DNA of 64,000 nt from Alphaproteobacteria bacterium. Lineage in GTDB: Bacteria; Pseudomonadota; Alphaproteobacteria; Micropepsales; Micropepsaceae. The notes beneath the pieces were generated by a model that worked only from the letters and a program-made list of their open reading frames with translations, did not search any database and was not told where the DNA came from. The first letter of the stretch is position 1, and every line of letters begins with the position of its first letter. Of the stretch, positions 24,628 through 33,370 are shown in pieces. The stretch spans positions 1-64,000 of the forward strand of contig JAHFQC010000007.1 in NCBI GenBank assembly GCA_023259375.1, written 5' to 3'. The position numbers were made by a program, and so were the translations under genes.

Positions 24628-24927
24628 TCAATTGAAAATGGCTTGATAGAGAAAGCCGTCGCCGTCGCGGCCGATCGGAACCAGGAACACCGGGCACGAT
24701 CCGAGCGCCTCATTGTGGAGCTGATGGATCTGCTGCGGCAGATAGCCGGGCCCCGGCCCGCGGAACTTCATCTCGAAGGGATCGCTGCGGATCGCCGGCG
24801 CGCTTTTATGCGGCAACGCCGTTACTTCGATCAGAGTCAGCGGATATAACGAATGGTCCGCCAAAGGCACCATGAACTGCTCATTCAAGCGTGCCTGGAA
24901 TTCCGCCAGGCTTGGAAGATCGGTCAT
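24628..24927 (-). CDS. DUF6916-like protein
   Basis: MTDLPSLAEFQARLNEQFMVPLADHSLYPLTLIEVTAL...PQQIHQLHNEALGSCPVFLVPIGRDGDGFLYQAIFN; follows the nucleotidyltransferase gene by 21 nt on the same strand. Confidence 0.7.
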   Translation of the reverse strand: MTDLPSLAEFQARLNEQFMVPLADHSLYPLTLIEVTALPHKSAPAIRSDPFEMKFRGPGPGYLPQQIHQLHNEALGSCPVFLVPIGRDGDGFLYQAIFN

Positions 24928-24948
24928 GGCGATGCCCCCTTATCAGGA

Positions 24949-26148
24949 TTATGCCAAATTTCTTCTGATTCTGCGCCAAATATAACCGAACGGCCAATAG
25001 ACGAAGTAAAGCCAAATCAACCGATCCGGCAGGCGCAAAGCGAGCCAATCCTTTTTGCGATGCAAAAGGAACGCCACTTCGAATGCGAAGTACCTAGCGC
25101 TGCGTTTCAGGCCAAGCTTGAATGCTATTCGTCGTAATACAAAGCCGTGTCTTCTGATGCTTGCAGGTGTCAGTTCCAACGCCGTCAGACGCAGTGCCCT
25201 TTGGGCCAGATCACACGCGCGCCTGTTGTCGGATGCCCGTTTCTCCACCCTCGGCGGCAGGGCGGCGCTGGCAATGCTCTGTGCCAGCAACAGACTGACA
25301 TCCAACAGCGTCAGATAGTCTTCGTTCGCAGCCCGGTCGCGCAGGCGCAATAAGTCCGCTTCGTCCATCGTTCGATAGATCGCGACCAGGTCGGCCATCC
25401 ACTTCAGACGTTCCCAGCTATGGCCCGACGCGTGGACGACGAGGAAATGGATGAGATCATCGCGCCCCAGGATTGCAATGTTGCTGCCCGCCAGCGGCAC
25501 CAGCGCCCGCCGCTCCCACAACGCGTCATGATCGGTGCGGATCAAAAACGGATTAGTCACGAGCCGGTAATGACACTCGATGACCGTGCCGCTTGGTCCA
25601 TGGGTGAATTGTTCGTCGTGACTAAAGCCCTTCAGGATCGCCGATTGGCGCGGCGAAAGCGGCCGTTTCGACGCTTCAGACTCGCATTCGTGCGCGATGA
25701 GAATGTCGCGAAATCGCGCGAAGTCATTCGGGTGAACGAGAAAATCAAGATCAAATGACTCACGAACGAAGGGATCGCCATAAAGGTAAAGGGAAAGCGC
25801 CACGCCCTTTAGAGCGATGGCACGCAGGCCCTGCTGCGTTGCGGCCTTGGTCAATTTTTGGAGCAAGTCGAGTTGGCAGACAGCTTTGCCGGCACATTGC
25901 CGTTCGGCGGCCTCTATGCTCGGGCGCACGGCAGCGGCGGCTTGTGGCCAGCCGGCTTCGCGCAATGTCGCCGCCATCATCGGTCGGATTTTATGTTTCC
26001 AGGCGAGATTAGGGATATTCGTCCAGTCAATGCCTGAAAATAGGTCGTGGTCCCAACAATGCGTTGCGTTCGCAGACCAATCCGCTCCCAAGATCGCACC
26101 GAGAAGCCGCCATTCCCTGGACTGGGGGCGCGCGAGAAGTTCGGGCAT
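24949..26148 (-). CDS. Nucleotidyltransferase family protein (PF14907-type, RiPP-cluster associated)
   Basis: LRAIALKGVALSLYLYGDPFVRESFDLDFLVHPNDFARF; 399 aa. Confidence 0.82.
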   Translation of the reverse strand: MPELLARPQSREWRLLGAILGADWSANATHCWDHDLFSGIDWTNIPNLAWKHKIRPMMAATLREAGWPQAAAAVRPSIEAAERQCAGKAVCQLDLLQKLTKAATQQGLRAIALKGVALSLYLYGDPFVRESFDLDFLVHPNDFARFRDILIAHECESEASKRPLSPRQSAILKGFSHDEQFTHGPSGTVIECHYRLVTNPFLIRTDHDALWERRALVPLAGSNIAILGRDDLIHFLVVHASGHSWERLKWMADLVAIYRTMDEADLLRLRDRAANEDYLTLLDVSLLLAQSIASAALPPRVEKRASDNRRACDLAQRALRLTALELTPASIRRHGFVLRRIAFKLGLKRSARYFAFEVAFLLHRKKDWLALRLPDRLIWLYFVYWPFGYIWRRIRRNLA

Positions 26149-26231
26149 GGGACGAATCCAAAAAAAACTCGTTCTCAGGCGGTCGGACTTGCCCTAACCT
26201 ATCACGTGAGGCTTGGGGGGGATAGCCGTCG

Positions 26232-27173
26232 ATGAATTCGCCCTTCACCGAAATGCCGCCAGAGCCTCTACCGGCGCACCGCTATTCGCTATTCGGTTTG
26301 AACTTCGCAACCGATCGAACGATCCCCGGCCTTGCCGAGGACGAAGGTTCGGATGTTGCGACGGTTACCGTCGCCTTCGCTCCGGTGCCGAACGCCATTC
26401 ATGATCCGATCTATTGCGATGACACCGTGCAGGCCAGTGCAACGGAATACCTGTTCGCCTATCCGGGATATCTGCGGCTCTACGTCGACGGCACCACGAA
26501 AATCACCGTGGAGCCGCTGGTGGAGTGCGATCCGTCGCGGATGTGGACATTCCTTCTCGGCATCTGTGCCTCAATCATCGGCTTCCGGCACGGCTTCATC
26601 CCGTTGCACGCCGCAGCCGTGCAGGGCCACAACGGGTGTGTTGCGCTGGCGGGCAATTCCGGCGCAGGGAAATCGACTCTCGCCGCAAGCCTGTGCGATC
26701 GCGGCTTCACGCTCCACGCGGAGGACCTGTGCCTGATCCAGCCGGCAAACGGGGCCCATCCGCGGGTGGGATCGGGCATCCGGGAGCTGCGCTTGTGGGA
26801 CGATGCGGCCGAGGCCTTGGATTGGACGCACCGTGTTTGTTGCGCGACGGAACCCGGGATACCGAAATCGGTCTACCGGCTGACGCAGGCGCCACCCGTG
26901 CTGCTGCCGCTGAAGCGGGTCTATGCGCTGGAATTCCATGACGACGACGTGCCCAAGGGCATTCACCGCGTGCACGGTGTCGACGCACTGCAAACGCTGA
27001 TTGCCAGTCTTCGCCTGCGCCCGGGACTGCTCTCGGTCGGCGCCCGGGAACAGACCTTTGCCAGCCTGGCGTCGATCAGCAACACGACGGAAGTCTATCG
27101 TTTCGTACGACCTCATGACCGGCACCAGCTGCAGGCCTGGTCGGAGCGGCTTGCCAACCACATTGCGGCTTAG
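26232..27173 (+). CDS. HprK-related serine kinase (RiPP/lasso cluster type)
   Basis: FIPLHAAAVQGHNGCVALAGNSGAGKSTLAASLCDRGFTLHAEDLCLI; 313 aa. Confidence 0.82.
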   Translation: MNSPFTEMPPEPLPAHRYSLFGLNFATDRTIPGLAEDEGSDVATVTVAFAPVPNAIHDPIYCDDTVQASATEYLFAYPGYLRLYVDGTTKITVEPLVECDPSRMWTFLLGICASIIGFRHGFIPLHAAAVQGHNGCVALAGNSGAGKSTLAASLCDRGFTLHAEDLCLIQPANGAHPRVGSGIRELRLWDDAAEALDWTHRVCCATEPGIPKSVYRLTQAPPVLLPLKRVYALEFHDDDVPKGIHRVHGVDALQTLIASLRLRPGLLSVGAREQTFASLASISNTTEVYRFVRPHDRHQLQAWSERLANHIAA

Positions 27174-32016: not shown

Positions 32017-32025
32017 CCGACACCA

Positions 32026-32538
32026 ATGCTCGAACAGGTCTCCGGGGTTGAAGTTCCACCCGAGTTGCGCGCCGCAGGCTATCGCTTGCGGCCGCAGCGG
32101 GAAGAGGATCATGACTTCCTCGAACGCCTTTATTGCAGCGTGCGCGACGTGGAAATCGCGCCGCTCGACTGGCCGGACGAGGCCAAGCGGGCCTTCCTGG
32201 CCGATCAGTTCCGTCTGCAGACCGCGCATTACCAGAAGCACTATTGGGATGCCGAGTTCCTGATCCTGGAACAGAACGGCGAACCGGTCGGACGGCTTTA
32301 TGTTTTCCGCGGCCCGCACGATCTCAGGGTGGTCGACATATCGCTCTTGCCTCAGATCCGCGGCGGCGGCGTCGGCAGTGCCCTGCTGAAAGCGGTGCAG
32401 GCGGAAGCCAAGGCCGCCGGCAAGACCGCCTCGATCCATGTCGAGATGTTCAACCCGGCGCAAAACCTCTACCGCCGCCTCGGCTTCAAGCAAGTGCGCG
32501 AAGACGGACCGTATTGGCTGATGGAGTGGCAGTCGTGA
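32026..32538 (+). CDS. GNAT family N-acetyltransferase
   Basis: YRLRPQREEDHDFLERLY...VVDISLLPQIRGGGVGSALLKAVQAEAKAAGKTASIHVEMFNPAQNLYRRLGFKQV. Confidence 0.88.
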   Translation: MLEQVSGVEVPPELRAAGYRLRPQREEDHDFLERLYCSVRDVEIAPLDWPDEAKRAFLADQFRLQTAHYQKHYWDAEFLILEQNGEPVGRLYVFRGPHDLRVVDISLLPQIRGGGVGSALLKAVQAEAKAAGKTASIHVEMFNPAQNLYRRLGFKQVREDGPYWLMEWQS

Positions 32539-32581
32539 CACCATCACGGATTTTCGCGCCGGCGAGTTCCAAGGCCTCGTC

Positions 32582-33370
32582 ATGAGCGCCGGCGATCCGC
32601 ACGCCTTGCTGGGCGATTTCCACACCGATCTTTGGCTGCCGGACTATCCAACAGTGACGTGCGGAGCCTGGAGCATCCGGCGCATCATGATGGCGGCGGC
32701 CCGCGGCTATTGGGGCGATGTCTACCGCATTGCCGGCACCGTCATTCTGGCCGGACCGGGCATGGAGGGGCGGGCCTCGTGGATGTCGCTGACGCCGTCC
32801 GAAATCGAAAGCCAGGAGATCGGGTTGCGTGCCGCCCACGGCCATACCGTCGTGCTGGGCATGGGAATGGGTTGGCTGGCGGCCAATGTCGCGCTGAAGA
32901 GCGAGGTCGATCGCGTCACCATCGTCGAACGCGACCCCGACATCATCGCCTTGATGGAAGCGGCAGGCGTCTTCGCGCAATTGCCCGAGGCGGCCCGGCG
33001 CAAACTGGAGATCGTCGCCGCCGATGCGCTCCACTGGCGGTCCGAGGGGCCGGTCGACACGCTGCAGGCAGATATTTGGGAGCGGTTTGTCGAACCGCAG
33101 AAACTCGATCAAGTCCGGCGCATGCAGGACAATATCGGCGCCAATGCCGTCTACTTCTGGGGCCAGGAGATGGCGATCTGGGAGATCGCTTGCGACCAGA
33201 CGGGGCCGCATCCGCCAATGGACTGGGCCATGGTCCACCGGATCGTGTCCGACATCCGCTTGCCCCTCATCCTGCCCGACTGGCCGGATTTTCCCGCAAA
33301 GATCACATCGGCCGCGCGCTGGTGGGCGCCCGATCACCGGGATAAGCCGGCCGATCGGGCCACCGCATAG
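32582..33370 (+). CDS. SAM-dependent methyltransferase-like protein
   Basis: GHTVVLGMGMGWLAANVALKSEVDRVTIVERDPDIIALMEAAG...Rossmann motif. Confidence 0.65.
   Translation: MSAGDPHALLGDFHTDLWLPDYPTVTCGAWSIRRIMMAAARGYWGDVYRIAGTVILAGPGMEGRASWMSLTPSEIESQEIGLRAAHGHTVVLGMGMGWLAANVALKSEVDRVTIVERDPDIIALMEAAGVFAQLPEAARRKLEIVAADALHWRSEGPVDTLQADIWERFVEPQKLDQVRRMQDNIGANAVYFWGQEMAIWEIACDQTGPHPPMDWAMVHRIVSDIRLPLILPDWPDFPAKITSAARWWAPDHRDKPADRATA

Follow-up and report, generated by a model that had tools for sequence, protein, structure and literature searches.

Positions 24628-33370 of the window, a 64,000-nucleotide stretch of contig JAHFQC010000007.1 (assembly GCA_023259375.1) from an alphaproteobacterium of the family Micropepsaceae, hold a lasso-peptide biosynthetic cluster next to genes for three Collar-domain proteins resembling the short tail fibre gp12 of phage T4. 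On comparison with related genomes, this block is a single horizontally acquired, mobile unit. A functional link between the peptide and the collar cassette is very probable, and we favour, as the probable explanation, one unit whose peptide and collar proteins act together at the cell envelope.

The block encodes a DUF6916 protein, a nucleotidyltransferase (NTP_transf_5), an HprK-like kinase, a PqqD protein, a lasso B2 protease, an AsnB-like cyclase, three Collar proteins, a GNAT acetyltransferase and a methyltransferase-like protein. In the window, an RcnB-like gene and thyA flank the entire stretch. Congeners have GNAT-folA genes and then a 2OG gene after thyA, with no block inserted; a small RcnB-like gene sometimes intervenes at the congener thyA sites read (L209, L211, L214 and L217-L220; loci are cited by L numbers and genomes by G numbers). 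Judged from these flanks, the window block entered between the RcnB-like gene and thyA as one insertion. The congener G298, whose thyA is 85% identical, has no block at its thyA site (L210). At another site (L222) it has a homologue of each of the 11 proteins of the block (44-67% identity) and a WVRPEF precursor, in an order that differs in that the methyltransferase gene is at the opposite end, adjoining DUF6916. This methyltransferase-like gene (67% identity) is the sole other copy found. The whole-block insertion here and the full gene set elsewhere in G298 make two unrelated insertions unlikely. The original prediction, made from the window's sequence before this analysis, had named the genes of the block; Pfam and NCBIfam matches place all of them where it had put them, with the DUF6916 gene directly downstream of the nucleotidyltransferase gene on the same strand. 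It was also right that phage genes do not accompany the collars: neither the block nor the sequence immediately beside it showed an integrase, terminase, capsid or lysis gene.

The association between the two halves was tested in 289 genomes of the class at a distance of 10 kb, for B2 with Pfam models only. Of 35 B2 loci, 6 had a Collar gene inside this distance where chance would give 0.12 (P about 1e-9); these cases come from 6 genomes in 5 families. HprK-like genes were found near Collar genes at 9 of 45 loci against 0.36 expected, a count that is biased because these loci had supplied part of the input to the HprK profile. In the same class sample, 14 of 14 DUF6916 genes above the cut-off had a collar gene within 10 kb, in agreement with the recurrence stated in the original prediction; the neighbourhood test of chance-level co-occurrence, which it had set beforehand, likewise left its claim unrefuted, given the B2 count. 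Its reading of the block as one system is supported by the linkage, the single insertion and the full set in G298, whereas the part in which peptide and collars are "displayed together" is still something that we infer. Because genes of islands lie in clusters, a null of uniform placement is lenient. Three other lines of evidence are independent of it: the order of the genes, which is conserved, the empty congener site and the test of exclusivity given below. Our own gene finder overlooks some genes, for example the window NTP_transf_5 gene and single collars at some loci, and presence counts are therefore lower bounds.

The conserved cassette was seen at L089-L095, L113, L115, L124, L134, L144, L150, L151, L163, L189 and L221-L223, and together with lasso genes on an annotated plasmid of Azospirillum sp. 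TSH100. Two further genomes, G040 and G095, show the association when their loci are read: they contain the cyclase, kinase, sulfotransferase and PqqD genes, while B2 was not found there. By these gene neighbourhoods, the peptide-collar linkage is non-random. No link between a lasso peptide and tail-collar proteins was described in the open-access literature searched, nor was DUF6916 mentioned there.

The collar half is spread over many phyla. A scan with the collar alignment, one genome per species over 84,980 species, returned 80 loci, with at least three collars at 54, GNAT at 49, DUF6916 at 34, a giant gene (>1200 amino acids, aa) at 38 and a lasso cluster at 8. By its recurrent gene content, the collar half is a general cassette of three T4 gp12-like proteins, GNAT and DUF6916. 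The giant surface-type proteins are its commoner partner, which the original prediction did not see. Four giants were typed, and they showed immunoglobulin (Ig)/cadherin repeats, an autotransporter barrel, S-layer homology domains and a midcut-by-XrtH-like match under the cut-off; searching the open-access literature for XrtH/midcut gave no relevant result. Annotated plasmids with a giant or Ig-repeat partner were found in Ruegeria TM1040, Pontibrevibacter and Rhizobium. The "tail fiber protein" triplet, GNAT and hypothetical (DUF6916) genes on the megaplasmid of Ruegeria sp. TM1040 form the same collar cassette as in the window, but the partner there is a giant surface-type protein instead of a lasso cluster.

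The two partners alternate. Among all loci read, both partners occurred together at 0, a lasso cluster only at 19 (one a duplicate reading, so 18), a giant only at 47 and neither at 22 (Fisher p 2.7e-8, with relatedness between loci uncorrected). The alternation extends to other genomes of the window's genus, where collars occur with lasso genes in G295, G298 and G310 and with a giant in G292, G299 and G301. The gene immediately upstream of collar 1 is a divergent precursor at 10 of the 18 lasso loci; at 26 of the 47 giant loci it is the giant gene, half of these divergent. The precursor often occupies the giant gene's slot. Resolution of the collar tree is poor, with 10 of 79 inner branches starred. 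On it, lasso-type collars are not a single clade (11 changes), of which the well-supported branches force only one; this suggests that collars may have switched partners repeatedly. The alternation in turn suggests related cell-surface roles for the two partners.

Several variants of the cassette were also seen. A gene of about 390-405 aa lies between the third collar and GNAT in Ruegeria (L204:10120-11337) and Deinococcus (L208:7081-8241); the Deinococcus product is of the periplasmic-binding-protein type, and the Ruegeria one has no Pfam match. An Acidobacteria contig (L170) has seven consecutive collar genes. At L097, L101, L102 and L194, collar and DUF6916 genes stand beside giants with an MFDAA start or a DUF4347-like N-terminus, and by eye, type-I-secretion-like genes are close by at L097.

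The peptide half of the window comprises the following features.

24949..26148, minus strand: NTP_transf_5 protein, tailoring enzyme (PF14907, 152.8 bits)
26232..27173, plus strand: HprK-like P-loop kinase (weak Hpr_kinase_C match)
27184..27471, plus strand: PqqD / lasso B1 leader-binding protein (PF05402, 61.2 bits, cut-off 23.4)
27455..27931, plus strand: lasso B2 leader protease (NF033537, 86.6 bits, cut-off 33)
27928..29898, plus strand: AsnB-like lasso macrolactam synthetase, the C protein (PF00733 and GATase_7)
29860..29880, minus strand: intrinsic-terminator-like hairpin, directly after the precursor stop codon
29883..30041, minus strand: lasso-type precursor, 52 aa, MNNQEDKTGATERSAAESDLRVWVKPEFRRVELGRAAGSFGNEVPTDGYSDT
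30070..30097, minus strand: promoter-like (sigma-70-like) site of the precursor gene (TTGGAA-16-TATAAT, 10/12 matches)

By its enzyme set, this half can be classed as a kinase-type lasso cluster of the paeninodin/SyanK kind. The B1/B2/AsnB core, the HprK-like kinase and NTP_transf_5 resemble those of paeninodin (PadeK), SyanA/SyanK of Sphingobium yanoikuyae and pseudomycoidin (PsmK/PsmN), as described in PMC9266682 and PMC8498205. In these reviews, PadeK and SyanK are reported to phosphorylate the C-terminal Ser of lasso peptides, and PsmN to attach a hexose to the phosphate. PMC9266682 states that the purpose of this phosphorylation is unresolved. By analogy with these systems, the C-terminal hydroxy residue of the precursor is the predicted phosphorylation target of the window kinase, and NTP_transf_5 would have a PsmN-like role, as in pseudomycoidin (PMC9266682). 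The kinase is weak against every model, and His126, Lys147 and Asp165 are invariant in alignment A5. The HPr-rel-A system likewise pairs an HprK-like kinase with PqqD, and the window proteins score under its cut-offs (TIGR04352, 37 bits against 200; TIGR04353, 21 against 35). PqqD gave 49 bits against the lasso-specific NF033536, under the cut-off of 80. In B2, Cys78 and His112 are invariant across eight relatives. The best NCBIfam model for the AsnB-like protein is the lasso cyclase NF033535 (326 bits, under the cut-off of 525); its sequence, read directly, contains the SSGLDSS (ATP) motif and lacks the N-terminal Cys.

The precursor gene is about 293-299 bp from collar 1, close to the 300 bp originally predicted, and is transcribed away from it. 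Its promoter-like site is about 28 nucleotides upstream of the start (1 found against 0.2 expected from shuffles). Its leader motif WxxP is common to other precursors, and the L222 precursor is at the same place. For comparison, a pattern set by hand yielded 28 precursors at lasso-type loci, some with collars and some without, and more turned up later. WxxP was part of the pattern, and its conservation in the alignment is partly a product of that choice; neither the C-terminal Ser nor the ring residue was a selection criterion. Ser is the C-terminal residue in 24 of the 28, and 19 combine Thr at -2 with Asp/Glu at core position 7-9. The ring options for the window precursor are Ser1-Asp9 or Phe1-Asp8. 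A C-terminal hydroxy residue and a predicted D/E ring residue at core 8 or 9 are shared with the kinase-tailored lasso peptides. Two loci hold more than one precursor gene: Erythrobacter colymbi (L134:8385-9088) has three in tandem, two sharing identical tails (PSYGPYGS), and a congener lasso cluster without collars (L228:6223-7969) has several differing precursor-like genes with YxxP leaders.

The remaining genes of the block are as follows.

24628..24927, minus strand: DUF6916 protein, 99 aa (PF21880, 86.7 bits)
30340..30861, plus strand (alternative GTG start 30334): collar protein 1, T4 gp12-like (PF07484, 91.3 bits)
30890..31435, plus strand: collar protein 2, T4 gp12 receptor-binding-domain-like (PF07484, 93.3 bits)
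31453..32016, plus strand: collar protein 3 (PF07484, 66.7 bits)
32026..32538, plus strand: GNAT acetyltransferase of the collar cassette (PF00583, 51.6 bits)
32582..33370, plus strand: methyltransferase-like protein (weak NCBIfam matches; PHROG methyltransferase, 2e-7)

These three Collar genes are the only ones in the genome. The AlphaFold2 model of collar 2, of moderate confidence (predicted local distance difference test, pLDDT, 78), matches the T4 gp12 receptor-binding domain (1ocy) over nearly its full length (E 1.4e-5, probability 1.00), and H96 and H98 of its HxH motif are invariant in 49 sequences. Metal binding and gp12-like trimerisation may be expected of collar 2 by analogy with that family. 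The window collars share the Collar domain (PF07484), overall fold and HxH motif with gp12; unlike gp12, they are stand-alone bacterial proteins of 170-190 aa, in triplets and with no phage context. The GNAT protein belongs to a family found in other cassettes (37-56% identity). DUF6916 was modelled as a small all-beta protein (pLDDT 92), for which neither PDB nor BFVD gave a significant fold match, and it has no PHROG match; by its neighbours, it is a family specific to the collar cassette. In the congener G290 (L227:7929-9853), members of a collar triplet start with Sec-type signal peptides, and neither lasso nor giant genes adjoin, which suggests that exported collars exist.

The favoured explanation, a single unit acting at the envelope, can be put as a series of steps. 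By analogy with characterised lasso systems, PqqD would bind the WxxP leader, the kinase would phosphorylate the C-terminal hydroxy residue (Thr in the window, Ser in most relatives), NTP_transf_5 would extend the phosphate, probably with a sugar, B2 would cleave off the leader, and the AsnB protein would close an 8- or 9-residue macrolactam on precursor Asp47 (DG motif). The collars would form metal-stabilised receptor-binding trimers that work with the peptide at the cell envelope, and GNAT and DUF6916 may modify or assemble them. The C-terminally tagged peptide would serve the collars as ligand, anchor or cap, a job that a giant surface protein would do in most bacteria. Such a surface partnership is favoured because it best covers both kinds of neighbour, the lasso cluster and the giant protein. 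The specific surface mechanism, drawn from the alternation with giants, is nevertheless doubtful in its details. It is possible, and we propose it tentatively, that a widespread gp12-like collar-triplet surface system with a dedicated GNAT and DUF6916 uses interchangeable partners, a giant repeat protein in most bacteria and, in some Proteobacteria, a lasso peptide with a C-terminal phospho-tag. If so, these lasso peptides would be surface or adhesion components instead of diffusible antibiotics, and lasso-peptide phosphorylation would gain a role. The collar link and the strict alternation with giants offer a testable context for lasso phosphorylation and DUF6916, as well as a genome-mining marker for a subclass of lasso clusters.

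Several observations weigh against this explanation. Some lasso clusters of this type have no collars (L107, L190-L192, L196 and L228-L230) and some collars have no lasso genes beside them, so neither half requires the other in every genome. The window precursor ends in Thr, not Ser, and has no Thr at -2, and in the HKDD motif of the window kinase, Glu replaces the first Asp. The window block has no ABC transporter, and no signal peptide was seen on the window collars, leaving export without explanation. The giants behind the exclusivity count were recognised by length (at least 850 aa), with a family search on four only. In its Thr terminus, lack of Thr at -2 and lack of a transporter, the window cluster differs from the kinase-tailored systems, as it does in its tie to collars, GNAT and DUF6916, none of which is mentioned in the available parts of PMC9266682 and PMC8498205.

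The strongest alternative, which we consider unlikely, is that two independent accessory modules without a common function are adjacent because both travel in genomic islands. The occurrence of each half alone and the clustering of island genes, which makes the uniform null lenient, fit this view. It accounts poorly for the order and divergent slot kept across families, the exclusivity against giant proteins, the insertion of the whole block here and the entire set at another site in G298. Moreover, L096 and L193 retain the precursor, PqqD, collars, GNAT and DUF6916 although the cyclase and protease are not in view at either locus.

It is rather less probable that the collars bind the mature peptide inside the cell, for immunity or as a carrier, in place of a missing transporter or immunity protein. 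The transporter-less window block and its collars without a visible signal peptide would agree with this, as would the absence of a transporter from view at most collar-lasso loci (three, L091, L206 and L221, apparently have one). However, giant surface-type proteins are the more frequent neighbours of the cassette, and immunity to a peptide would serve no purpose beside them; moreover, the same genome holds a B2 and ABC transporter pair on another contig. There (L106:7916-10065; G000 contig C33), a second lasso B2-like gene adjoins an ABC-transporter-like gene, and this pair could serve the transporter-less cluster of the window.

Envelope masking or a phage decoy, with collars coating the cell's own surface glycans and the peptide or giant protein as anchor, is improbable; the collars do have the fold of a phage receptor-binding tip, but there is no PADLOC match. 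Because of this last result, a known anti-phage defence family was also rejected. A prophage or tailocin remnant with surviving tail-fibre genes, to which the match of the collars to phage tail families (PHROG) might point, is rejected as highly improbable, since no other phage gene is nearby, DUF6916 has no PHROG match, the triplet with GNAT and DUF6916 is kept outside phages across many phyla, and L100, the single locus seen that clearly looks like a prophage, has neither GNAT nor DUF6916.

Two further features were observed. At L093:19597-19905, frames with repeated VPRTCGDEP / CSPHLRG look as CRISPR arrays usually do when translated. In the window, a BrnT-like ribonuclease toxin gene (34209-34734, minus strand; PHROG 2e-32) lies just past thyA, accompanied by a BrnA-like partner recognised by eye; no such pair was seen to adjoin thyA in the congeners read.

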